In this document: piece by piece, positions 19,040 to 64,000 of the stretch
Layout of the letters: each line of letters begins with the position of its first letter
How positions within the stretch are numbered: position 1 is the first letter of the stretch
Assembly: GCF_021155765.1 (NCBI RefSeq)
Contig: NC_060106.1
Span: 21,292,031-21,356,030 of the forward strand
Direction: 5' to 3'
From: Diprion similis
Taxonomy: Eukaryota > Arthropoda > Insecta > Hymenoptera > Diprionidae
Length of the DNA: 64,000 nucleotides
The notes under the pieces: generated by a model
Told to the model about the DNA's origin: nothing
What the model saw: only the letters and a program-made list of their open reading frames with translations
The model's database searches: none
Translations under genes and position numbers: made by a program

Positions 19040-21561
19040 ATGATACATCTCACCGTGGCCTCCATCGTACCCATCGCGTTGACAATTCTGCATGTATCTG
19101 CTCTGAGTAAGCTTCTTTCACATGAATTTTATATTTATATATTTTATTTATTCTATTTTATAAATACATATTTTATCATGATAATTATGATGGTAATAAC
19201 CGTTGATTAATGAAAATGAAAAATCATTGTTATAGAGCCAGAAATTACACAGCCACCGACCAATGGGGTGACTGTAGATGGGAAAAGTGTTCGGATTCCC
19301 TGCCGCGTATCCGGTGTTCCGGAACCTGAAGTCAAATGGTTCAAAAATGGCCAAGAACTCACAGCAGGCAGATACCGCATCCTTGAATCCGGGGATCTTG
19401 AAATTGATAATGTCCACTTCGGCGATGCTGGGACCTACAGATGTAACGCATTAAACAAATTTGGCAGTGAGGAAGCCTCCGGTAATCTTGAGGTGAAAGA
19501 ACACACGACCATCACCGATGAACCGGAAGACTACGAAGTTGCTGCTGGATCTACAGCAACATTCAGGTGCGTTACTTTTATATTAAAGAAACAAATAATC
19601 GCCATTTCTGCCCAACTAGTCCAGAAGTTTCTATTATTTTATTATATTCGATTATCACAGTATCTGATTTAAATAACTAAATTAAACTTTATCGCAGATT
19701 TCAGTTTAAACTAATCAAATCTGTGTTCCAGATGTAATGCTGTGACAGATTTAAGTTTGTCACTGATTATTGACTGGCTGCGTAACGGAGAGCGGATAGA
19801 TTTTGGCACTGAGCAGAGGTTTATTATGGCCAACGATTATTCATTGACCATTACAAAGACTATAGACTCAGATTCTGGAACATACACATGCGTCGCTCGT
19901 ACAGAGCTAGATGAAGCAAAAGCTGAAGCTACATTAATGGTCCAAAATGTGCCGGAAGCACCTCGCTTAGAGGTAGTAATGTGCGATATACATGAAGCCA
20001 ACGTCCAATGGGTCCCTACAGGTGACAATAGAGCTCCCATCCTTCGATACACCATCCAATCTAAAACCAGTTTGAACAATGACACGTGGGTGGTTATAAA
20101 GGACGATATTCCGGCCACAGCGCAAAACTACACCGTACCGCTGACACCCTGGGTCGAAAAGGCCTTCCGTGTTTTGGCGTGGAACAAAATAGGTAAATAA
20201 GACATCAATTGTTGAATTTAATCGCTCCTCGTATACGATTGAGGAGTGGATTTTCATCGAGCTTTACTTGAGCACAGGGGTGTCGTTACCATCGCAATCC
20301 AGCGAGGCTTGTGTCACTCCACCTGATGTCCCTCATATGAACCCGAAGAACGTTAGAGCTGCGGGAACAAATCCTCATAATATGGTCATTAGATGGACCG
20401 TGATGCCTCGGACAGATCGTAATGGGCCAGGGTTCAAGTACCGAGTGTTCTATAAGCGTGATGCAGACGGCGCAGAATGGACTGTTACAGATATAAACAA
20501 CTGGAAATTGCACAAACTCCAGATAGACAATCTGCCGACTTACCAGCGGTACAAGATCAAAATTATCGCCATTAATGACCTGGGAGAGTCCAGGATAGCG
20601 GCGAACGAAGTCTTCGGCTACTCGGGAGAGGACGGTGATTATCGGTTCCCACTGCGTTTTTAATTAATGCAAACGACCATGTTTAAGCCGTCGTAGATTT
20701 TTTTTATCCAACCAATTTTTGTCTCGGTTTACTTCTTACACAGTGCCGCAACAAGCTCCGGGGAACTTCACGCTGTTAAATGTAACCGGAAGTACGAGTG
20801 CATTATTCTCATGGAGCCCTGTACCAGAAAAGTCGATTAGGGGAAAATTTCGGGGTTATAAAATCCAGACGTGGACAGACAAGAATACGGATGAAAATAT
20901 AACCGAGATTCATGTGAACAAGGACAGGACCAGATTTCTGTTTCAAAAATTGGTGCCATTCAGCAAAAACTACGTGAGGATTCTTGCCTACAATAAAAGG
21001 TACGGATGAACAGAAAAGTTGTAACGAAATCGTGATGACCAGCTTCTTGATTCAGCTTTTTCAATCATCTCGGATAGGTACTACGGCCCACCGTCGGATA
21101 CGCTGAGCTTTGAAACACCTGAGGGAGTTCCAGGAATGGTCCAATCGTTCGACGCAGATCCTCTGGGATCTGGCGCGCTCAATTTAACCTGGGCAAAGCC
21201 TGAACATCCCAACGGAATTCTCACCGGGTATAGAATTTACTACGAAACCGTTTCAGGCACAGATTTGGGTCCCATTCGGGAGATGAGACCGTCCGTCACG
21301 GACCCAGAAGCGACTAGTGTCGAGCTACATGGGTTGTTACCAGAAACTACCTACAGAATTCATATTCGAGCCACGACAAGAGCTGGGGAAGGTGAACAGT
21401 AAGTGTTGTTGGCAAAATGTTATTACACTGATATGTATATTGAGTTAAGAATCATTCGACTACACTTTTATAATTTCATTTCGCTTTTTCAACCATTTTT
21501 CAGATACTTTATCGAACGATCAACAGACGGCCCAGACACAGAAGATTATTATGACGAATAA
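19040..21561 (+). CDS. Neuroglian-derived secreted protein A (signal peptide, Ig5-Ig6, FN3 x4)
   Basis: Seven exons: 19040-19106, 19236-19566, 19732-20192, 20278-20634, 20744-20999, 21078-21398 and 21504-21561. They give 616 residues. Exon 1 encodes a 22-residue hydrophobic signal peptide and ends in phase 1. The mature part aligns in order with Ig5 (Cys45/Cys92), Ig6 (Cys134/Cys186) and the first four fibronectin III repeats of neuroglian/L1CAM. Diagnostic strings include GDLEI, EDYEVAAGSTATFRC, RGKFRGYKIQTWT and TPEGVP. It then ends in an acidic tail (DGPDTEDYYDE) and a stop. Missing relative to neuroglian are Ig1-4, FN3-5, the transmembrane helix and the ankyrin-binding tail. I infer a soluble extracellular protein that may bind or compete with L1-type adhesion receptors. 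Exons are intact with conserved disulfide cysteines, so this is probably a functional paralogue. Confidence 0.9.
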
Positions 21562-22404
21562 GTCGCTCAGAATTTTCTGCCAATTGGTGCCTTCATCTGT
21601 CTGAAGGGGGAATAATTATAATAATGATTTTTTAGGTATACGTTTTAAAAGAATGTATTTGTTTTTCTTTCAATTAACAATGGAATATAAACTTAAAATA
21701 TTGGCTTTCCCAGTTTCAACTTGTCAAAAATTGAACCTCCTAAGATTTACTGTAAACATTATGTGTTGAACTTCGAATATCGATGGAACCGTAGTTTACA
21801 GGCATGCGTAAAAGTAAGACTTTTAAATTTTTGCTACTGAATGTGTGACGGAAAAACCTCACGGCTGCAGAAGATATTTTGTGACCAGATAGCGAATTAT
21901 AATTATCTGAAAAACTAGCTAAATGAAGTAACAATAAAAATACTTGTTAAATAATTGAGCGACAAATCCAATTTACTGCAATGTTCTCGACAAGCTTGTG
22001 AATCCATGTTTTCCGTACGATCATTTGTGCAGTCGACCAATTTAAGTACGAAGCAAGTAGAGAGCTGCTTTTGCGTGTGATTTTGAATCCTTACGACGAC
22101 TAGATGAAACGCTCATCGAAGCACAGCGACGTGTCAAGCGATTCGTGGCACGTAATGACGATTTTCAACTATATCGACGAAAGTACACTGCAACATCGAA
22201 ATAGACCGAGCATAAGAGCAAAGGATAAGTCATTTGAGCTCTCTGCGTCTGCGAGAGTTAATCGTTAAACTAGTTGCAGTTTTTTTCTACTACATACGAA
22301 CGAGTTGATTGCACAAAATCTACTGACTTTTCGAACTTTTACAATTGATTTTTTTTTTTTACTACTTTCAAATCTCCAAAAACTAACAGTTACAATATAT
22401 TAAG
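21562..22404. other. Spacer between neuroglian-like genes A and B
   Basis: Contains the 3' UTR of gene A and the promoter and leader of gene B. No other coding sequence is seen. Confidence 0.5.
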
Positions 22405-24257
22405 ATGGAACATCTCATCGTGGCCTTAATCTTATCCTTCGAGCTGATTACGGTTCTACAAGTATCTGCGCAGAGTAAGTATACAGATACAATTTATACT
22501 CGTTTTACGATACAAATTGAAAATGCAAGCTTGACGTTCGTTCTCATTTCATATCTATAGTCGAGAAACGCGGAATAACCATTTATAGAGGAAAAATCTG
22601 CAAGAATTTTTTACAGAACGGAACACGTAATGAAACTTAAATAATGATTCAAATATCAAAGTATTATGTGTGCTTGCAGCTACTATCAGACCAGTAATTT
22701 ATCTTCAACGTAGCTATAGTTCTCGGTTCTTTCTAATTCAGAATTCAACACAAATAGACATCCAATAATACAAGTTGATAACGCAGCGGTGACACAGTTG
22801 TTTGCTGTACTTCTTGACCCCGAATGATTACATTTATTTACAGTACAATATCCACCAAAAATAACGAAGCAGCCGCCAACAAATGAACAGTTCTTTCAAA
22901 CCGCTGAACCAATGGTAAAAGGCAGAGATCTTATCCTAGAATGTGAGGCTGAAGGCAACCCTGCGCCAACGTAAGTTAAAAATATCTGCACCTAATGGAT
23001 AAGAAGGAAACTTTTCCATAGAAACTTTCCATCGATTAGCTAGAACCGGTCTCCAATTTAATAAAACTGGGGACTATAATAAACCGCCATTACTATTAGA
23101 CTAAAATTAATTCAATCATCAGGTATCGTTGGAGAAAAAACGGAAGACATTTCGAGTGGCAAACGTACGCAATTCACATCTCACAGCGACCTGGTAAAGG
23201 AACATTGGTAATATCGAAACCGCGAGCCGAAGACGTAGGTCAGTATCAATGCATAGCCGAAAACGCTTTGGGAACCGCAATATCGAATTCGGTATTCATG
23301 CGAAAAGCGGAGCTCGACTATCCGAAAGACATCCAATCGGCCATAATGACTGCAAACGAGGGAGACCCATTCAAACTGACTTGCCAGTCTCCAACCGGAC
23401 CACCCAAGCCACTGATATACTGGTTGAAACGGTATCCAAACGGAAGTACAGCCTTGATCAACGATTCCAGAATGACCACCGATCCTGAGGGAAATCTTTG
23501 GTTCACTAACGTGACTAGAAACGACGCTTCGGACATGATTTCTTACATTTGTGCAGTCAGTTCGGAGTTCAAGGCCGAGTACAAGCTGAGTCCTCCTGTC
23601 TTGTTAAATGTTGAGCGAACGGGATTGCCAGCAAATAATAATACACGAGAGCCAGTACAGCAGTACGTTACCATAAAGAATAAGGCTGCTTTACAAGGTA
23701 GAACAGTGGAACTGTACTGCATTTTTGACGGCACTCCTGTTCCGCAGACAGTGTGGAAGAAAAATGGTGAAATATTGGAAAGCAGCGAGCGGATGACGGT
23801 GAGGAACGACGGAAAATCGTTGTTCATAAGACATGTTGTATTCGAGGATGAGGGAACGTACACTTGCAACGTATCGAATGGAGTCGGCGATCCAAAGTCG
23901 TACTCGATTAACCTCCAAGTCCAATCTTTTCCTTATTTCACTGTCGAACCAGAAACCATAACTGCAGTGGAGAACGAGAGCGCGGAGTTTAGGTGCGATG
24001 CTGGTGGTGTTCCTGGGCCTGAAATCAGGTGGATCCATAACGGGAGGCCTGTTCAGGAGTCGACGTATAATCCGAGAAGGAAAGTATCTGCGAATTCGAT
24101 TGTCATTGAGAACCTGGTCAGGAATGACACTGGGAACTACGGATGTAACGCTACGAACTCTCTAGGTTATGTTTACAAAGACGTTTTTGTTAACGTCTTG
24201 GCTTCGACACCAGAACCTACACAACCGCCGACGACTACGGAAGAAGCGAATATATAG
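22405..24257 (+). CDS. Neuroglian-derived secreted protein B (signal peptide plus Ig1-Ig4), hemolin-like
   Basis: Three exons, 22405-22474, 22844-22970 and 23123-24257, give 443 residues. Exon 1 encodes a 23-residue signal peptide (MEHLIVALILSF...) and ends in phase 1. The mature protein is four Ig domains with cysteine pairs 57/109, 153/209, 265/314 and 357/407. The sequence follows neuroglian Ig1-4 closely: RKAEL, DPEGNLWF, GTPVPQTVW, PYFTVEPE and NYGCNATNSLGYVYKDV. Directly after Ig4 it ends in a short Thr/Pro-rich tail (TPEPTQPPTTTEEANI) and TAG. Several N-glycosylation sequons are present (NGST, NVTR, NVSN, NATN). Ig1-4 of L1-type receptors form the horseshoe used in homophilic adhesion. 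The same Ig1-4-only secreted layout defines lepidopteran hemolin. Immune or adhesion function here is inference from architecture. Confidence 0.9.
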
Positions 24258-24309
24258 AACAATTAACAAATGTATGAAACAGAAACATCATGATTGAGTT
24301 TATTTTGAG

Positions 24310-24315
24310 AATAAA
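24310..24315 (+). terminator. Poly(A) signal of gene B
   Basis: AATAAA 53 bases after the stop codon, consistent with gene B ending after Ig4 as an independent transcript rather than reading on into gene C. Confidence 0.6.
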
Positions 24316-24519
24316 CTTTACCCTTCCCAGTACCGCTCTATTTGTAATATAATATAAAGAGATTTCCTGAAACCAGTAAAAACTTTTCTTGCGATACATT
24401 TTTTACTAACGACACTATTGATGGCGATGCAGGCAGTTACAGAGTGCATGGAAAATTAATTCTTGTATCGCTATAATTGTGCAGCCAGTTATCCTCGCGA
24501 TGTCAATAACTGCTCCTCT

Positions 24520-24615
24520 CACCTTAATCACGATTTCCGGCTACCAAATAAACGCCGCATCGTTGAATGGGTCATGCGAGAAATTGGCAAATTGGTGACA
24601 CTGAAGTCGTAATTA
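24520..24615 (+). repeat. Duplicated flank, upstream copy
   Basis: Aligns over about 90 bases with 28140-28229. Shared strings are atttccggcta, cgttgaatg/cattgaatg, gtcatgc, aattg.caaattggtg and tcgtaattag. It is evidence that non-coding DNA was duplicated together with the neuroglian-like genes. Confidence 0.75.
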
Positions 24616-25630
24616 GGGGGGTGGAGGGGGGAATTTTTTTACGACGCACGTACAGTAGATATTAACATCACGGACAGAGTGACAGTGCCTGGTTTGTCCT
24701 GAGCTTGATCGTCGTTTCGTAAGAGCAGGGTACGAATTTCGTCTACAATTGATTAGAAAGAACGTGAAGATTCGTTCTGTGGTTTTGATTTTGCGAGTTT
24801 ATGTAGCAAATTTGGTTTCTTACGAGCGGATTTGAGGTAAGCGTTTGTTCGATGGTGTCTATGATTATCCCGGGTGAGATTCCATATCAAATTCCTAATA
24901 AAATTCAAGTGCATAGCCTCGATGTATTTAACATTGATTAATTATTCCAAGTTCATAATTTTTCAAGCAATGCACTGCATCGTCAACACTGAAAATAAGT
25001 CAAACTCAAGTTGCCCTCATCCTTATACAGGATTTTACTCTCTGTTGAAATTGACGAAAATTCGATATTTATGAAATTCTTCGTTTCTGATCGTTTGCGT
25101 TCGAACTCCCAGAGAAGGATTTTAAATAAAATACAGAAATAAGCAATCACGTGATAAAAACGTATATTAAATTCTGAATTTATGCATTCGTGTACCGTTC
25201 AATAATTGGCACGATTCTAGATGAATTACCAGAGTTTGAAACTAATTATATATGCATTAATTTTTTTATCGTAATCTACTGGCTTAATTAATTAAAAGTT
25301 ATAGTTATTATTATATAAATACAAAGTAGACCTGCTGGGACATTATGATTAATTCAATTTTTCTAACAGTGTATCTTCAGAGCAACACTGATCATCTTGT
25401 TGAGCATCTAGTTGGAATGCTCACATTCCAAGCATCTCTTTTGTTCTATTAACAAGAAGTCGGGTATTGAATAAATTTCTTTTATTTACCCTCCACACCT
25501 AACCAATACCAGTTAATCAAAGTACAACTTATTAAATCCTGAGAAGTTTACGTTTGAGCTTAATTTATGCATTCGTCAATGTTTTTAGCATTCCGTTTTC
25601 ATTCCATACTACCAATCCTACACCAGGATA

Positions 25631-27514
25631 ATGCGGTTCGATGTGGTCTCAACCGTGCCCCTTGCACTGGCGATTCTGAGAATATCTGTGTTGAGTATGT
25701 CCTTCTGAAACTTGGAAACTATACTTTCCTACACAGAGAATCGATCAGAGACAAAATTAATATCGAAGTACTATGCATGCTTGCTTGGCCGCGTTTATTG
25801 CCAGTTAATTAATTTCACTTCGACTCAGCCGTAGCTCGCTTTTTAACTTTGTTATACTAAAAGTTTAAATTTATATCGACTTCATGATGCCAGGTCCACA
25901 AATTACACAGCCACCAATCGATCAGACGACTGTCATTGGAAAAACCGTCAGGTTTACCTGCCGTTTTGTAGGTGGTTACGAACCTCGACTCGAATGGCGA
26001 ATACAGAGTTGGACATTATGGGGACACAGATTCTCCACCCTTAACTCCGGCGACCTCGAAATTAGAAATGTCGACGCTTGGAATGCGCACACCTACACAT
26101 GTCACGTATTCAACAGCTTTAGCTCTGTTGAAGCCTCTGCTACTCTCGTTGTGAAAAATAAAACTATCATTGTTGAGAAACCTGAAGACTACGAAGGCGC
26201 TATCGGGTCTACGGCAAGGTTTAGGTGCGTTACTGTATTATTAGAAAGAAAAAAACTGACAAATAGTCGTCAATTTTTCCCAAATAGTCCATGAACTTTC
26301 ATTCCGTTAAAAGATCTAAAAATCGATCATCTAGGCCTATTTAAGCATGGATTGAATAAAAACCTCTCTTCACTTTTCAGTATGAACAATTGAAATCTGA
26401 TGTGTTTCAGGTGTATCGCTGTATCAGATTCAAGTTTGAAACTGAGAATCGACTGGCTGAGAAGTGGAAAGCAAATAGATTTTGAAACGGAGTCAAGATT
26501 CGTCAAGAGCAATGATAATTCCTTGACAATTACAGAGATCATAGCATCGGATTTAGGAACGTACACTTGCGTGGCTAAAACAGAGTTGGACGAAACAAGG
26601 GCTGAGGCTATATTGATGATTCAAGAAGTGCCAAGACCTCCTCGCCTGAAAGTGGTTAATTGCAGAATAAACGAAGCCGACATCCATTGGGTCCCTACAA
26701 TGAATAGCAACGGTGCTGCCGACATTCTGCGGTACACCATACAATTTCAAACTAGCTTTAGTCCCGCGAGATGGGAAATTGCTCGAGACAATGTTTCAGC
26801 CTCCGCCCAAATCTACACCGTGCCTCTATCGCCTTGGACCAAGTACAAGTTTCGAGTTGTGGCCTGGAACGAAATAGGTATGGTATTTGGTCGATTATAC
26901 CATGGTTCATGTCAAGTGTTCGATGAGTTTTATCCCAATTGACTTGTGATGCTTTACAGGAGCTTCGTTACCATCGTCACCCAGCAAGGTTTGTGCCACT
27001 CCACCAGATTTGCCTCACAAAAATCCCGACAATGTCAGAGGCGTGGCAGCTAAGCCACAGGGATTTGTGATTCGATGGGCCATGATGCCCGAGATAGAGC
27101 ACAATGGGCCAGAATTCAAGTACCAAGTGTACTTTAAGAAAGACATACCCGGCACGGATTGGACAAGGCTGGGTAACAGTTCAAATGACTTCAGCATTTT
27201 AATTATGGATTTAAAACGTTGAATGTCATTTTTCATTTTCCATTTGAAATTTGAAATAGAACTGGAGAAAGCATTTTCATCTGTCCATTTGAATGACGTT
27301 TTATAAGCATTGATTCTATTTTCGATTTCGAAAGCATTTTACCCAGTCCTGAGAATGGTTAATTCTAGCTATACTCAACTGGACTGTAGAACAGATTCGG
27401 GTAACGGATCAGCCACCCAACCAGCGATATAAGGTCAAAGTTACTGCCATGAATTACCTCGGAGAGTCCTGGGCAAGGCCTACTGAAATCATAGTCGACT
27501 CTGCAGGTGCATGA
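25631..27514 (+). CDS. Neuroglian-derived secreted protein C (signal peptide, Ig5-Ig6, FN3 x2), shortened
   Basis: Five exons: 25631-25694, 25894-26224, 26411-26877, 26960-27172 and 27369-27514. They give 406 residues. Exon 1 encodes a signal peptide related to those of A and B (LALAILRISVL) and ends in phase 1. The mature protein parallels gene A exon by exon: PQITQPPIDQT beside PEITQPPTNGV, then Ig5, Ig6 (EDYEGAIGSTARFRC) and FN3-1 and FN3-2 (NQRYKVKVTAMNYLGESWARP). It stops with GCATGA where gene A continues into FN3-3. Two differences from gene A stand out: FN3-2 is interrupted by an extra 196-base intron (27173-27368, donor GGTAAC), and the third fibronectin exon is only a relic. Ig disulfide cysteines are kept. 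It is probably expressed but reduced; pseudogenisation in progress is the alternative. Confidence 0.75.
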
Positions 27515-27680
27515 CAACGGTAAGTAATTATTGGTTTACGCTACGATTCATGAAAACGTGATTCATTCCTATTTTTCTAGATATTCCAACCTGAAAATAG
27601 GATTTTTTCATTACACAATAACACTAATACCTTCAATATTACCTCGTAAATAACTTGCCGTCTAACTATCAATTAATTTA

Positions 27681-27760
27681 TAAACAACAGCCTGGAAATT
27701 TTTTTTTCCTCAATATCGAGTATACGTATAGTACTTTGTATGAGAACAAGTTTGTTGCTT
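27681..27760 (+). pseudogene. Possible relic of a FN3-3 exon downstream of gene C
   Basis: Reads QQPGNFFFLNI in one frame, close to QQAPGNFTLLNV at the start of gene A exon 5, and lies in the equivalent position. Similarity fades after about 15 codons. I infer a decayed exon left when gene C was shortened. Confidence 0.4.
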
Positions 27761-27769
27761 TGACAAACT

Positions 27770-27970
27770 CTAAAGTTCAGTCTTATTCCCGAAATTCCCT
27801 AACTTTTCGCCGACTTTTACCTACTATAAGAAATTTCCTGAGTTTTCCCTGTTTTCCAGATTTTTTCCATATAATAAGTACAGGTTTGTTATTCGTACTA
27901 AGAATAATTAAGTTTTTGGTACTTTTCGAACTTATTCCCCGTAACTTTTTCAACTATTTTCTAGCTATTT
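27770..27970 (+). repeat. Possible dispersed repeat with ATTCCC-TAACTTTT motifs
   Basis: Repeated short motifs of the type ATTCCCTAACTTTTC, CTGAGTTTTCCCTGTTTTCCAG and CCCCGTAACTTTTTC are typical of low-complexity interspersed repeats in insect genomes. It sits right after the gene C exon relic and may have helped disrupt it. Confidence 0.3.
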
Positions 27971-28139
27971 CGTTGTGAAGCGATCAACGCTGAGTGACAA
28001 TGCAAAAGAAGCTGACGATTTTGTTGACTATTGAGTCGAGTGAAATTTCTCAGTCTGTGGATCGTGATTGAAACGTTGACGACACATGATTCAAGTAGCA
28101 AGATTTTTTAAATAATACTTTTTACTCTACTTCTGATCC

Positions 28140-28229
28140 GAATGACAATTTCCGGCTATAAGCGCAATGGCGTCATTGAATGAGTCATGCTGGAAATTGA
28201 GAAATTGGTGGTACTGGACTCGTAATTAG
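28140..28229 (+). repeat. Duplicated flank, downstream copy
   Basis: Second copy of 24520-24615. About 110 bases further on, at 28335-28348, it is followed by GAGTTTGAGGTGATG. This matches the TTTGAG/GTAAG leader exon of genes A and C, but the donor is changed to GTGATG. Confidence 0.7.
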
Positions 28230-29078
28230 CTATGATTAATTATAATAGAAAATAAAATAGAAGAAGGAGAATGAGGCACTTTTGTTTTCAATCGATTTTA
28301 TGACTTGATTCGAGAAACTTATATTCATGTGGCAGAGTTTGAGGTGATGACTTTTTCTATACTCTCTGCAAAATAATTATCGCTTATAGTTGAATGTATT
28401 ATACATGTATATTATTTATTTAATGTTTGTCAATTACATTAGTTTTCGTCTAATAAAGAGTTCGTCTGCGATTTGCTGTTATAGTGCAATTTCACATCAA
28501 GTTGTAACGAGGTTCGACTTCACAACGTCAACGTATCAAAAAATGCAGAAATTGCTATTTGTCAACTTTAGAATTGTTGTAAGAATGTAGTAAACAGCCG
28601 ATGCTTAGTTTTCCGTGTTTTTTATGGAATACACTAGTTCGTAATCCCTAAATCCCGATTCGATTCTGATTCTGATGAAAACAAAATTGAATTTTGAAAT
28701 ATAGATCATGTGTGCGTTGGTCATGAGAACATAACTATATTAAAATATAAGTAAATCATTCAACGATTGGCAAGTTTCGACAAGTCAACTACCAGGATTA
28801 ATCGAATCTAATATGTGCATTGATTTTTAGTGTTAGATATAGATAGATAGCGAATAGATCAGAGAAAACTATTAAAGTATATTTCACAATAACTACTATG
28901 AGGTCATTAATTTACGTTATGAAATTAAACCAACCATAATCTCATTTAAGATCCTGCGAATCCATGTCTCTGCAGTGTGATTCTTCATTTCAAACGCGAT
29001 GTGGGAAGCGGCTCTTATGCATGTGAGTTTCAATTCCCATGACGACGATGCGAAAAGCTTATCAGCTATCCATGCGGC
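28230..29078. other. Remnant of a further duplicated leader, no coding exon
   Basis: The stretch around 28755-28835 resembles the gene C leader intron around 25197-25270: both have tcaa.gattggcacgatt-like and tatgcattaattttt-like strings in the same order. No signal-peptide or Ig exon follows before the next gene. It looks like a decayed partial copy of the array unit. Confidence 0.35.
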
Positions 29079-32000
29079 ATGGTCGCGTATCAAGATAAAA
29101 AAATCCGATATCAGGTTCTACTTGTTTTTATATCAGTTTCCAATTGTAACCGTTCAACGTCGTCATTTTGCGTTGTCACAATAACCAACGAAACTCGAGA
29201 AATGTTACCAAATTTACTTGCTGTAAAATCGGTGCATCGTCAGGTGCGTCTAAACGAAGTTCTGGCCAGACTCGAGAACGCAAAGACTCAGCACGAGATA
29301 CTGAAGCCACCAAAATCCTCGATAGTACCAGGATGCAGACACTGCAGGATCAGAATGAAGAATTCATGCGGGAGGAAAGTTTTTCCTAACGCATCGCGAT
29401 ACAAGCCAGTCTTCATAGCGAAGTTAGAGCTTTTTGTAGAAAAGGAACTGAACCGCATTGAGAAAGGGTCAGAATGCCGTGAAGTTGGCTGCGACCATCT
29501 TCTTTGCGAGCAGAAAAAGCTGGACGCAGAATTGGCGGTATACAAATCAGCGTTCGAGTTACTTCTGACAAAGATAACGACTTTCAAGCCCATCTTGTCG
29601 AGGATAAAATCAACTTACGACAAGTGCATCGAGGTCAGAGAGGACAGGATGAAGCTGATGGAAATAGTGTCGTCGAAATTGGATGCGTTCAAAAAAACGG
29701 TGGAGAAAAAAATCGACACGATCGAGCGAACGGGGACGGGAAAAGTTGGCGCGTTAATGAGGGAAAAGTCCTGCTTGACGGAAACCGTTGCAAAACTTAA
29801 AGCAGACCTCGAAGAGAGTGGCGCGAAGATAAACAACTTGAGGGAGGAATTGCTCGAGTGCGAGGAGAGGGAAATCCGAAGAATCGTTAACCAACGGAGG
29901 CAAAATATTGAGCCATCCTCTCGAGGCGCCAAAGGTAAATAAAAAAGGTAAAACAAAGCTGTGCTGAGAGTAACGCCGTTGCTGAGAGAGTCGTTCGGTT
30001 TAAATTGTTGAAGAAACAAGGATGGGACGACAGACGACGCAAACTCGACGGCTCGACGAAGATCCCGTTTTGATGAGCGTTTGCTTGCAACGAGCGAGGA
30101 AGGACCTCAGCTCTGCTCATCGGAAAATCGCCGAACTCGAGGACACCTTCCGTGAAGTTGTGCCAAAATGGGAACTCGAACGGCTGGAGAACAGACACCA
30201 GGCTTTTGAAAGGGAATATCGAAACCTCTCACAGGAGTTCGAAGCTCTCAACAAAGAGCACGAGGCACTCAAGTGTAAGGGAGCACAATAATTAGTTTTA
30301 CTCGTTTAGTTAGTTGCTGTGGAAGCTGATTGGTCTTATTAATCATGTCAAGGACATCGGAATGGTGCGATTGTTAGAGTAGGAGATTTTTTAAACTTTG
30401 AATTGTCATTCGTGAAGAGACTGAAGTTAGTAACGTTGACGTAACGAAACATGAAGGTGGAACTAAGGTAATCGAGTTTTCAAAACATAAATAGCAAAAT
30501 TACGTTTTTTTACGGAACGTAGATCATTTCAATAACGTTACCAACTTCATCTTCAACATTCATCTAAGCGTACGAAAATGAATGCGATGGGATCATAATA
30601 TTCTTGAATAAAGATTAGAAAAATAGAGCTATTTAAAAAGTGCGACTAGAAGCTAATCAGGATAAATCAGAATGAGGCAAACAAGATGGATTTCTCCGTG
30701 CGAAAAATGGTTGAATAATAACATGACGTTTATAATGTTTTTAACACACTGAAAAGTGTTTACGCGGGATTCTCTTTCATCGGGGGTAACTAGATTAGCT
30801 TTAGAAGCACTTTTCCAAACATATGTTTGTTTAGTCATGTTTTCGTTTCAACAGATTTTTGACCAGGTCTCACGCGTTATTTTAAAATCATTTCAGTGAA
30901 CTTTGAGGTGGTTCGAGAGCAAAAGAACAGCCTAAGAGACCGCTGCAAAATATTGGCACACACAAACACACCGAGGCCGGATTGGTCCAAGTAGGTAGAC
31001 AGGAGGATATCCATGCCTGCCTGATCAATCCACATGCATGCAAAATATGTGCACAAGTACAGTCGATGCGCGAGCTAAGTACGCGGTTACAATTATAGAC
31101 TCACTCACTCACTCGGTCAGAGGTCTAATTACGTGATTACGGCCGTGAAACGTTGAAACAAGGCCGATTTATCAGTATAATTGTATTTCGCCGCTGACTG
31201 CACTTGCTCGGACGTCGACTATGCAACTACAGAGATCTGCAGGTGCACGCAGTTTATCAGGGGTAGTTCCGAAATCGCTAAATTCCGATTTTTTTCGTGG
31301 CGAAACTTAAAGTAAAGAGATAAAAACTTTAATGAAATGTCAAAGTTTCGGATAGTCCGAAACCCGACGCTTAAAGCTCCGAAAGTGCGAAAATGAGAAA
31401 ATTGAAAAATCTGAAACATCGAAATTCCGAATGATAGAAAGTTTTCAGTTCCGTCAATTTCTGGCTTGGTGAAATTTCGCCATTTTGATCTTTCTTCGTT
31501 TTGGATTTACGATATTTTTACGCTTGAAATCCTGATGATGGTGATCCTGATTTTCGGTTTTTCTGAATTTTTCGCACCCATTCATTGAGTAAACCACGCT
31601 GTGTGAGTATATTTTAATTTTTGAAATTTCGCTCTATCGAAACTTTATTTTTCGGAACTTTGTTCCATCGTAACTTGAATTTTCGTAACTCTGCATTTCG
31701 GAACTTTGAGCCGTTGGATTTCCGACGATTCGAAACTTTGTTGTTTGGTAAAAGTTTGATTTCTTTACCCCGAGTATTGCCACAAAACAATTCGAAATTA
31801 GACGATTTCGTCACTTCTCAAATTCGGGACTTCAACTCCACCCCGTTTATCAGACCTTGGGTTAAAACCGAATCACTTCGTGAGTCTGTCGAGTAATTTC
31901 ACTCTCCACATTTCCCACCATCCAAGCAAATATTCTGACCGATTGACTCAACTTTACAAACCATTCAGAATCCTCGGGTGTTGGGAATCGTGAAAAGTGA

Positions 32001-35638: not shown

Positions 35639-36622
35639 TTACAGTCTTTTCTTTGGTAGCGAACCAAAAGCGGATATTACCGTTGCTTTTGTCCCCGTCG
35701 CTGAGGACGTGAGCGTTGTTAAGGTAGGTTGAGACAACAATACGGTAGGCTTGACGGAGGTAGGAGCTCCGGTCGCCACCTGATCCCATTTGCTTTTTCT
35801 CTTCTTGGCGTCGTCTTCGGCAGTAACAGAAGAATTTGTTGGCCTCTTAGCGGTGCCGGATACAATTTCAATTTTTGTTTTCTCCTTCCTCATTTTCTCA
35901 AGCTTGTCCATTTCCGTTTTTTGCACCTTGGCCAGTTCCTCGTAGTACGAATCTTTGCCCCATTTGAAAGGATCGAATCTTTCTGGCGGGTAATTGGTAC
36001 CTAATTCATTGATGCTACAAAATTGAATAAGTTTTTCGTAAATAGAAGGATTCCGAAAATCTTTTCTCTGTTGTATGACTTTGTTCATGTCCAGACCGCT
36101 GCCCTCCATCTTTCTGAACAGTTTAGTTATCTTTTCCTGTAACTCGACAGGGCATTGTCCCTGCGGTTCCGGCGGTATCGTCACTCCGAAAAGGTCTGTC
36201 TCGCCATCTGAAATCATATCTCCCTGATGCGAGGGAGACTGCATGGTGGAAGCCAAGGGGGATCTCCCATTTTCAAAGAGCTGCCCCCCGGCGTTAACCA
36301 CCGCAGTACCCTCGTCATCCGAGACTATCGTGTCATCAAAATATGAAACTAATCTCTGGACTTTGGACGTTACATCCGTAACTAAGGTGGGGGCGTTGGG
36401 CAAGTTTGCATTTGACTTGCTATTCGACCCGATGGGGCTATTGGAGGCGGATCGGCCAGATTTGGGACTGGTGAGACCCTGGGGTTGACCAAATTGGACA
36501 TTTTGCGGGGCAGTAGTCCCCTGCGGGGTGTTCTCCTCTAGATCCTCTTCCACCCCGTCCTCACCCTCCGAGTCGGTATAGGTGGCCGTGAGGGATGCCA
36601 ACGCAACACTTGGTACAGACAT
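35639..36622 (-). CDS. SAP30BP: SAP30-binding protein (HCNGP family)
   Basis: Single uninterrupted coding exon of 327 residues. The N-terminal third is acidic (YTDSEGEDGVEEDLEENTP), as in human SAP30BP. The HCNGP domain spans about residues 150-255: IPPEPQGQCPVELQEKI, RKDFRNPSIYEKLIQFCSIN and ELGTNYPPERFDPFKWGKDS. A Lys-rich KKRKSKWDQV segment and the conserved TVISAFGSLPKK tail close it. Family knowledge: a nuclear protein that binds the SAP30 subunit of Sin3-HDAC and also acts in splicing of short introns. The frame is open for 13 codons upstream of the ATG, but no earlier ATG exists; the family-typical start context (SLTATYTDSE beside SLAVYAEDSE) supports 36622. The vertebrate gene has many introns, whereas this CDS has none. 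Confidence 0.93.
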   Translation of the reverse strand: MSVPSVALASLTATYTDSEGEDGVEEDLEENTPQGTTAPQNVQFGQPQGLTSPKSGRSASNSPIGSNSKSNANLPNAPTLVTDVTSKVQRLVSYFDDTIVSDDEGTAVVNAGGQLFENGRSPLASTMQSPSHQGDMISDGETDLFGVTIPPEPQGQCPVELQEKITKLFRKMEGSGLDMNKVIQQRKDFRNPSIYEKLIQFCSINELGTNYPPERFDPFKWGKDSYYEELAKVQKTEMDKLEKMRKEKTKIEIVSGTAKRPTNSSVTAEDDAKKRKSKWDQVATGAPTSVKPTVLLSQPTLTTLTSSATGTKATVISAFGSLPKKRL

Positions 36623-37821
36623 GGTTAGTTGGCTTTGACTGTCCGCGATGCTACCAAGCAATATTTTGTGGGAGAACTCACCGGTGTAGCGTTCCAGCCT
36701 CTTTTTTTTTTGTTTTCTCGCTGGGATATTATTTTAGCAGCGCACAACTATTGCGCAACTTGATTAAAGCGTGCCTTGATTTTCGATCCAATATCTCAAT
36801 CAGTATTCCTGTAACAAGAATAATGCAAAATGTGGATTTGAAAATTCGCCACATATCAGATATTGTCTTATTCCTTATAGACAAATTTGAAAATATTTCT
36901 TTCATCCAGAAAAATATTCTTCAACCTTATAAACTTACGACGCGCGACCTGTTCCACCTTCTCTCGTTTTTCAAGGGCTTACGCTATCTCGATACTTTGG
37001 AAAATCTGTCTGGTTATTTTGTATATCTTTAAAATAAGAAGTTTTGTGTTAATGTAAACTGGCAAGGTGGAAATGAAAAGGGTTAACGATAATTTCCGAT
37101 ATGCGAATAACTCTGACGACTAAGAATATTTTGTGGTAATTTTTTTTACCAACATTTTCAACGTGCTGTAATACCGACGTTAGCTCACAAATTAACTTTA
37201 TTTCAAATTATACCTAAATCGCCAGAAATTCACGAAATTGATCTATTAATCGTAGCGGTGGACGAAATCACTGTCCAACATATTCATGGTGAAAATCATT
37301 TTCCCTAATCGTAACTTCAAATAAATCCCACGAGCCAGCGTTTCCATCATGAGGTTATACTATTCCTGATAACGCTTGGTGGTCGAATATCTTCAAGTTG
37401 TTTTCCCCCCATTGTTTTTTCGTAACTTACTCGGTGGATACTTGACCAATATTAAATTCCGTAGTGAGAGAACGGAGCGAGTAAATTGGGCGAAAAGAGG
37501 CCTAATAAGCGAGACACGAAGCGATACGAGGATGATATACGGACGCTCGGTTGGAGAGATTTGAGGTCACACATAAATGACACAAGTGAAAAGTTAGGTT
37601 AGGTGGCTTTTAAGAATTCGGGGAATTTTTAATAAACCGGATTAACGACTCACCTGATATATGCCGCATTCAATTTTTCACTCTTCACCGTGTCAGAGCG
37701 CACCATCCAAATACAATCAAAACACGGCGTCTTCCTGGCGAATTAATAAATAAATAACGTAACGTTACACAGTCGATCAACGCGCATCCAAGGGCTTTCG
37801 CTTTGTTGCGAAAGCGGAAGT

Positions 37822-61960: not shown

Positions 61961-63490
61961 TCATTTTGTTCCGATAATTGATTCAACGCTGAAAGATATC
62001 ACCGGTTTCTTTTCGAAAATCGGTGGGGGTGAGACGACATATGACGTTCCGTGTTTACCGGATGGGTTGAAATTCTCCCGCGGACTAGAGGCTGCAAATA
62101 TGAAACCACTGAGTCTTGTTTTGGAGGTTTGAGCCTCATTCGAAGACGTGTACCAAGGGGCAGCGGTTTGGTACGCCGGGTACAACGATTGTAAGTCTAA
62201 ACTCTCGTCAGCAAACGTCCGTCTTTTCCGTTGTCGATCACTCGGCGATAGAGCGGCCAAGATCTGGGGTGCTGGCATTACTATAACAGAAAATCGTAAT
62301 TTCGATCAGAGGAACTTTCGGCTTTGCGTCTTCGACGAATTTGACCGAGAGATTGTTAGAGAGATATACGTTAGAGTAACCGCTAACTTAAGGGTATCGT
62401 AATCGATTTCTGCAGGTCGATCGGATCCGGAAATGAAAAGAGATGACGTTGACTAGACCACAATTCTCTAAAGTTTAATAAAATCTAGACATCGGTACAT
62501 AAGTATATTATATATAGCTCGCACCATCGTTGAGCTCGCACAACAGCTGTGGACAAGAGTATCACCTTTTATGATTTCCTTTCGTTGCTTTGAAACTCTA
62601 GGAATGTCAGATGTACAAAAATAACAGGATTTCGTTCCTTGGAAAACTGATGGAAGTGATACTGTATCATTTACAAGAATAAGAAATGGTAAAGGCTCGG
62701 GGAAGAAGGGGGGGACGGGGAAATCGTCCAAAGTAAACGATCGTAAAGTTATTTGGGGCTCGTTGTGTATCTACTCGCCTTAAGATGTTTGCAGAGTGAT
62801 GTAAACAAAGTTTTATTGTCTCGAGGGTCGGCAAGTTTGAGTGTACATTGCACCCTGAATTCACGTATACCTATACATGTTGCACGTACACAATTTGAAT
62901 TTATAAAATTCGCGTTCCCTTGAGTAAACTCGTAAATAACGAAGCAAACGTATACGTCAACTCGTATTGTTAGTTGGGTAAACAAACCCGTATGGTAGTC
63001 GAGTTACAGTACCGTAAGTTGCTATACCTGCGGACTGTAGTCCACCACTCCCAGGCAAGGCGTTCAAGCTCAAATTCTGCGTAACACTGATCTGCGTTTG
63101 GGTGAAGTGAAGATGATGCTGCAGATTGCGCAGTCTTCGCTGATAAGCGGCAGCAGCACGCTGCTGGTCCCCTATATTATGGACTTGTCCCTCGTTTGCC
63201 AATTTCCCGGACGTGGGGAGCCGTCCATGGTCATTGTTATAGCCGCTTCCGTGTGCCTGTTGCTGCCGACGGAGGGCAACTTGGGCTGCCATAACCCGTT
63301 GACGTTCGACAACCAAAAGGCAGCAGGGACAACGGCAGTCCTTCCATGCGCAGGATCTTTTATGACCCTTCAAACCGGAAATCACCCCGTGGTTTCTGCA
63401 CCGCGCACATTTTGGACTGCGGAGACGATGCTCGATCGATGATGATGCCGACTGTCTCGTTGATGGATCGGTCGATTGATCCGTCTTCAT
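61961..63490 (-). CDS. DM-domain (doublesex/mab-3 related) transcription factor
   Basis: Two exons on the minus strand, 63490-63013 and 62280-61961, join in phase 1 to give 265 residues. The DM domain starts at residue 27: [21 protein letters not shown] then CRCPCC. Zinc ligands C28, C31, H34, H43, C47, C52, C54 and C56 or C57 are all visible. The recognition tail is [19 protein letters not shown] Gln-rich, low-complexity middle follows. The second exon (from [20 protein letters not shown]) ends in FSVESIIG at 256-263, which resembles an eh1 Groucho-binding motif. It belongs with Dmrt2/Dmrt11E- or Dmrt93B-type proteins rather than doublesex itself; I cannot choose between them. No DMA domain is seen. 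It is a nuclear DNA-binding regulator. The first exon is secure; joining exon 2 rests on phase and splice fit. Confidence 0.85.
62281..63012 (-). other. Intron of the DM-domain gene
   Basis: 732 bases, donor GTACTG and acceptor TTCTGTTATAG. The first-exon frame stays open for about 18 codons past the donor, so an unspliced shorter isoform (177 residues) is possible. Confidence 0.5.
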
Positions 63491-64000
63491 AGTTTCTCCG
63501 AGTCTTCTCTTCAGGTAATGTGGGTACCTCTTTGCACTATTAGGTACCTGAAACCTATTTTACTTTCCTAAAACTCACGTTGCCTCCGAGTTTTACAGTT
63601 CCCCGAGCTTCTACTTGACTCAACTCGTACATACAATCATTCACCAAACCGTGTCGATATAGTGGCCACGGGTCTCACTCATCCGTAAGAAATCCCAGCT
63701 TTTCTAATCAACTTTTTCAGCGATACTATAATTCGTAGAGCTTGACACTGTAACACCGATTCGGATCGTTGGGGGATGCGTCGTTTACTCGAGAACTAGA
63801 ACCTTGCGACTGGCTGACTCAACTGGTCCAGGTTTGTCGGAATTGCTCGTATAGATGAGACGTTGCAATGTATACCACTCAATCGGAGGCTGAGAAGACT
63901 GCGTGTTTTTTTTTTTTTATTTTTTTTCAAGGAGGAGGAGGTGTGGTGTTGCCGTTGCCTCCGCCTCCGCCTACGAAATTAAAAACTATTCTTAACCATC
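63491..64000. promoter_or_regulatory. Upstream region of the DM-domain gene
   Basis: GC-moderate sequence upstream of the start codon, with a plus-strand T run (63908-63927) and a GGAGG-rich and CCGCCT-rich tract (63931-63972). Presumably promoter and 5' UTR; an untranslated exon may lie beyond the window. Confidence 0.35.

Follow-up and report, generated by a model that had tools for sequence, protein, structure and literature searches.

Molecules of the L1 type carry five FN3 domains, and neuroglian serves as a neural and junctional adhesion molecule. A second system that has to be considered here is hemolin of moths, which the cited passages describe as a secreted four-Ig protein of horseshoe shape that binds bacterial surfaces and haemocytes (PMC9163686) as well as lipopolysaccharide and lipoteichoic acid (PMC4386667); induction by infection is among the properties given for it in the same two sources. 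The cited literature terms hemolin exclusive to Lepidoptera (PMC4386667; PMC2728511), although a hemolin-like protein of shrimp was reported in 2015 (PMC9163686). Here we describe a tandem array of three genes, A, B and C, in a window of 64,000 nucleotides (nt) from the pine sawfly Diprion similis (C2:21292031-21356030; assembly of 269 Mb in 60 contigs). We consider it probable (roughly 60%) that the array consists of secreted modules made from the ectodomain of neuroglian in the diprionid lineage, by a process including duplication and complementary loss. The neuroglian origin and the layout of the genes are well supported by the sequence comparisons described below.

The three genes follow one another on the + strand, head to tail, with A at 19040-21561, B at 22405-24257 and C at 25631-27514 (all positions are those of the window unless another locus is named). 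Gene A has 7 exons and encodes 616 amino acids (aa), comprising a signal peptide, Ig5, Ig6, FN1-FN4 and an acidic tail, and it ends within the FN5 exon. Gene B has 3 exons and encodes 443 aa with a signal peptide, Ig1-Ig4 and a short tail, which is the layout of hemolin. Gene C has 5 exons and encodes 406 aa with a signal peptide, Ig5, Ig6, FN1 and FN2, stopping directly after FN2. The reading frames of all three are open along their full length, and GT-AG boundaries were found at 12/12 introns. For C, the acceptor at 27390 of the first model was replaced by 27369, and the Pfam scan and the neuroglian alignment of its domains were made on an earlier form of 399 aa. Above the Pfam cut-offs, A and C matched Ig and FN3 families and B matched Ig families; Pfam recognized three FN3 stretches in A and one in C, and the fourth FN3 of A, the second FN3 of C and the numbering Ig1-6/FN1-5 come from the alignment with neuroglian. 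A database protein named neuroglian-like from Diprion similis, P0121, equals A at 615/616 residues. The difference is residue 23, which is K by GT-AG splicing (19106|19236) and S in P0121, where AA..AG at 19108|19238 would be required.

The maximum hydropathy in a 19-residue span was N-terminal in each protein (A 2.0, B 2.2, C 1.9), and past residue 30 the value stayed at or below 0.96 in all three, compared with 3.24 at the membrane helix of Diprion neuroglian. Hydropathy over the whole models thus revealed no membrane helix in A, B or C, and Pfam matched no Bravo_FIGEY domain in any of them. Judged from the hydropathy profile and from the homology of their first exons to neuroglian exon 1, the products of A, B and C should exit the cell. 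These rebuilt models agree with the first-pass annotation in the position and strand of the three genes, in their putative signal peptides, in the lack of a transmembrane helix and in the division of the ectodomain, with Ig1-4 in B and Ig5-6 plus FN3 in A and C. A search for an intact neuroglian and an Ig/FN3 phylogeny, both proposed there as checks, gave the results that follow.

A transmembrane neuroglian gene was found on the same contig and the same strand, 0.55 Mb downstream (its first exon lies 547,612 bases beyond the end of C). Its single open frame of 1223 residues contains the signal-peptide exon, Ig1-6, FN1-5, the membrane helix and a partial cytoplasmic tail; the last exons were seen and left unjoined in this model. 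The region from Ig1b to Ig5 is a single exon of 1416 nt (L016:2789-4204). For the Neodiprion neuroglian P0202, Pfam gave 6 Ig and 4 FN3 stretches and the intracellular Bravo_FIGEY. No third neuroglian locus was found by searching the genome with B and P0121 (best 95 of 141 and best 71 of 187 candidates scored): outside neuroglian and the window, the best matches reached 64 bits for B (28% identity) and 91 bits for P0121 (29%), and single Ig domains elsewhere in the genome reached up to 49% over 81 residues. The possibility that the array exons are parts of one transmembrane neuroglian was rejected, because neuroglian sits elsewhere and no match to neuroglian with an E value of 5 or less was found in the four stretches that separate and flank the array genes. 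As a separate observation, a likely microexon was read by eye in neuroglian intron 1 (L016:1361-1386); Neodiprion P0202 has ITIPDGTT at this position, and the array gene models are without such a microexon.

How the ectodomain was divided can be traced at the exon boundaries. In each array gene, exon 1 can be aligned with exon 1 of neuroglian and has the same end phase; for A (19040-19106) the alignment is ungapped with 45/67 nt identical, and in C the signal peptide has an in-frame exon of its own with a GT donor (25631-25694). The last 12 bases of A intron 1 (19224-19235), TCATTGTTATAG, match the neuroglian sequence coding for the Ig4-Ig5 linker, TCCTTGCTATAG, at 10/12 positions, and the alignment continues into the A exon on the Ig5 side, so that coding sequence seems to have been turned into a splice site in A. 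Splicing of neuroglian exon 1 to this point of the linker would keep the frame, as read by eye. The C acceptor matches the linker at only 5/12 nt, and it is therefore A that carries the interpretation of the linker as an acceptor. Gene B is without the linker AG; its tail (24204-24257) reads across an eroded Ig5 start and ends in a stop, and an AATAAA signal (24310-24315) follows 53 bases past the end of the stop codon.

We propose that neuroglian was duplicated together with its signal-peptide exon in the diprionid lineage, and that the copies would then have been reduced in complementary ways, with the cut at the Ig4-Ig5 linker. Gene A would have lost the exons of Ig1-4, the linker AG becoming the 3' splice site for the signal-peptide exon, and C would have taken the same layout with an acceptor that no longer shows its linker origin. 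In B the frame halts just inside Ig5. At the other end, A would have been shortened to a point inside the FN5 exon and C to just after FN2. The duplication followed by complementary loss that had been put forward from the first reading of the sequence is consistent with the shared signal exon and frames and with the position of A's acceptor in the linker.

In the phylogenies the array genes grouped with sawfly neuroglian and not with moth hemolin. In an Ig1-4 tree of 26 rows, B and its Neodiprion partner joined Athalia and diprionid neuroglian (99/96), and a tree of 17 rows gave the same grouping of B with sawfly neuroglian (89/97, not starred), the bootstrap being unsettled in both. In an Ig5-FN2 tree of 20 rows, A and C each paired with their Neodiprion partner (100/98 and 100/100); the groups A+C (59/53) and A+C with diprionid neuroglian (61/91) were present in the best tree and were weak. 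Since A, B and C each have a Neodiprion partner, the sequences are older than the Diprion-Neodiprion split. In the homologue lists (the best 120 of 124, 174 and 466 proteins, most rows without a species name), no protein named from another sawfly had the cut of A, B or C, and the sequences suggest a diprionid origin of the array.

The same trees bear on the relation between B and hemolin. B is 62% identical to sawfly neuroglian (251/404), whereas hemolin shares at most 38% identity with any of the 26 tree rows and sits on a branch of 5.33, which makes its own placement unsure. The possibility that B is a hemolin orthologue was rejected on the 26-row tree, in which B falls with sawfly neuroglian, and by this placement B does not share descent with lepidopteran hemolin after the split of hemolin from neuroglian. 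The Ig1-4 region of B is predicted to take the horseshoe fold, as in hemolin, and B is the only array gene that combines inferred secretion with four Ig domains and no membrane helix (by Pfam and hydropathy). On sequence grounds, then, B has the layout and the predicted fold of hemolin and is separately derived. The signal exon of B (23 aa), searched against the PDB, gave 0 hits.

Comparison of A with neuroglian revealed both constraint and a trace of exchange. All whole exons compared equal the neuroglian lengths (5/5), and with exon 2 included no gap occurs across 1793 nt; the start of the neuroglian exon 2 piece was set by hand, and only the five exon lengths are an independent match. The gap count of B exon 3 against neuroglian had arbitrary ends and was left unused. 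The A introns have gaps and 50-62% identity to those of neuroglian in 4/5 compared, the exception being intron 2 (19567-19731), which is 165 nt long in both genes and 84% identical without a gap. The proportion of synonymous differences (pS) between A and neuroglian is 0.28-0.39 over codons 60-280 and mostly 0.5-0.8 further on. The identity of intron 2 and the low pS over these codons indicate conversion by neuroglian. The conversion-like span (19536-19760) covers the end of exon 2, intron 2 and the start of exon 3, with neuroglian 0.55 Mb away. In the tract, differences common to both A proteins against both neuroglians are scarce as well: of 70 in total, its four 50-column bins contain 0, 1, 3 and 4. 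Sites at which A follows the neuroglian of its own species number 8 in Diprion and 21 in Neodiprion, ruling out a conversion limited to Diprion; conversion may have occurred in both, or earlier. Between Diprion and Neodiprion the identity is 93.1% for neuroglian, 85.1% for B, 78.0% for A and 72.0% for C. As judged from these comparisons, the array genes are retained yet evolve faster than the parent neuroglian.

Several points weigh against our reading of the array. The ratios of nonsynonymous to synonymous divergence (dN/dS), which against neuroglian are 0.24 for A, 0.20 for B and 0.36 for C and between A and C 0.39, are rough, because pS lies close to saturation at 0.52-0.62, and the low pairwise values are owed in part to the constrained neuroglian branch. 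Dating is blurred by the conversion in the Ig5-Ig6 tract of A. Neither Ig1-4 tree has a settled bootstrap, and with the A+C clade so weak, one loss of Ig1-4 is indistinguishable from several. C is the most eroded of the three genes, with relics behind it, an extra intron and the lowest identity. The horseshoe is also shared by contactins, sidekicks and DCC, so that the fold of B is no pointer to immunity. Finally, the database models P0172 and P0173 fuse B and C.

These two models raise the alternative that B and C form one gene encoding a secreted protein of Ig1-6 plus FN1-2, in which case the array would consist of two derivatives and not of two halves plus a third gene. P0172 (Diprion, 813 aa) and P0173 (Neodiprion virginianus, 815 aa, 4 members) are 78% identical, B followed by C is the order of neuroglian, and the linker of P0173, read by eye, has the length of the neuroglian linker; the fused P0172 has six Ig stretches and no domain after FN2. 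However, in the tested range the sole two-exon join giving P0172 is 24204|25888, with the dinucleotides CG..GA, and no microexon solution for the junction was found there. B has its own stop and polyadenylation-type AATAAA signal, and C its own signal-peptide exon and donor. P0121 likewise implies a non-canonical first intron, and from the non-canonical joins in both proteins we infer that their junctions were set by protein similarity. A fused gene therefore appears unlikely, and three separate genes are the likelier arrangement in Diprion. The first-pass annotation had called the three genes complete; three open GT-AG models speak for this, and the span of P0172 across B and C speaks against it.

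As to what the products do, we tentatively suggest by analogy that they are soluble L1-type adhesion modules that tune haemocyte or tissue adhesion, perhaps in immunity. B would be a hemolin-like Ig1-4 horseshoe binding surface neuroglian or other partners, and A and C would be soluble rods. The hemolin analogy and a cited passage describing moth haemocytes positive for neuroglian as aggregation foci (PMC9218073) favour such a soluble modulation of cell adhesion. It is conceivable, though somewhat doubtful, that the modules act outside immunity, as soluble regulators of signalling through neuroglian, integrin or growth-factor receptors in epithelia, the nervous system, the reproductive tract or the silk gland. 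The parent, after all, works as an adhesion molecule of neural tissue and junctions. In Galleria, silk glands and the central nervous system were found to contain hemolin (PMC2990333), but a change faster than that of the parent fits many roles.

The surroundings of C show what this gene may have lost and gained. At 27670-27741 (+), tblastn with A matched 24 residues (37.5%, E 0.05); the match alone is weak but stands at the expected position and is likely a decayed FN3 relic. The last exon of A has a counterpart at 27965-28034 (+), either a relic or a copy not in use, whose frame stays open up to a stop of its own. These two traces indicate that C probably descended from a longer, A-like gene. 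The extra intron of C within FN2 (27173-27368, 196 nt) is found neither in neuroglian nor in A, and portions of its bases 63-175 match three other places in the genome at 74-80%; it may have been gained via insertion of a dispersed element. The possibility that the segment is mere decay was rejected, since P0172 has a spliced reading here and parts recur at the three other places. RNA folding of the intron gave z -1.56 and no lead. That the whole array consists of partial neuroglian copies becoming pseudogenes is improbable, because, despite their truncation relative to neuroglian and the relics and the intron with a recurring segment in C, all three models are open throughout, the compared exons of A are ungapped, pairwise dN/dS is low and Neodiprion keeps partners.

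A repeat of ~90 bases was seen behind B (24526-24616, +) and behind C (28141-28229), 76% identical over 94 columns, and is perhaps a trace of tandem duplication; a dispersed element was rejected because the genome search gave its own place only, although this search was insensitive, as it also missed the 76% second copy. The next open frame downstream (29043-29942, +) has a TSNAXIP1_N domain, and further neighbours with Pfam matches are HCNGP (35639-36733, -) and a DM domain (63000-63559, -).

Compared with neuroglian/L1-CAM, the array genes have exon lengths, phases and domain order in common with this parent, and alignment, trees and exon comparison point to descent from it. In contrast to the parent, each encodes a partial ectodomain: none unites six Ig domains with five FN3 domains in a single protein, none keeps the whole FN5, and neither a membrane helix nor a cytoplasmic tail with Bravo_FIGEY was detected by hydropathy, by Pfam or in the intergenic stretches. 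Like lepidopteran hemolin (PDB 1bih), B has four Ig domains, no membrane helix and, by prediction, the horseshoe, yet in the tree B groups with sawfly neuroglian.

Four further proteins, known from annotation only, show a similar cut. Helicoverpa armigera P0158 resembles A and C in that two Ig and five FN3 stretches come straight after its N-terminal hydrophobic leader, with later hydropathy at or below 0.79, but it groups with Plutella neuroglian, and a single clade with A and C was rejected (approximately unbiased test, p-AU 5e-49, chosen after the tree). Cotesia glomerata P0047 has the layout of B (435 aa, four Ig stretches, no membrane stretch, 0.73), but it groups with Microplitis neuroglian (100/99), and a single clade with B was again rejected (p-AU 1e-4, likewise chosen after the tree). 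Mythimna loreyi P0035 (four Ig stretches) and Planococcus citri P0061 (by eye) have Ig1-4 only, as B does, but carry membrane-helix-like stretches (hydropathy 3.2 and 3.6). From their tree positions, the moth and wasp proteins cut between Ig4 and Ig5 arose separately from the sawfly array. Among titles and abstract starts of the open-licence PMC literature, none was found to deal with a neuroglian family that is split or secreted. The initial statement that no described system with both halves as separate secreted genes was known needs qualification: hemolin is a precedent for the N-terminal half, and proteins with one half are annotated in Cotesia, Helicoverpa, Mythimna and Planococcus.

A far more speculative and rather improbable extension is that the L1-type receptor would have been divided more than once in insects, in diprionid sawflies and noctuid moths, into separate N-terminal and C-terminal modules, because the Ig4-Ig5 linker can serve the signal-peptide exon as a 3' splice site, and that the neighbouring sawfly halves would cooperate, either among themselves or together with neuroglian on the cell surface, to form a soluble recognizer or adhesion regulator in two parts. 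It is well supported that the array represents an L1-type gene truncated in tandem and in complementary fashion, and for one of the halves a precedent is known. Hemolin has so far been treated as a lepidopteran peculiarity. The separately derived hemolin-layout genes of sawflies and a braconid wasp, together with C-terminal counterparts in sawflies and one moth, would demonstrate the repeated evolution of free-standing neuroglian pieces cut between Ig4 and Ig5, and would offer independent cases in which to test why soluble, possibly immune, proteins come from a neural adhesion receptor.

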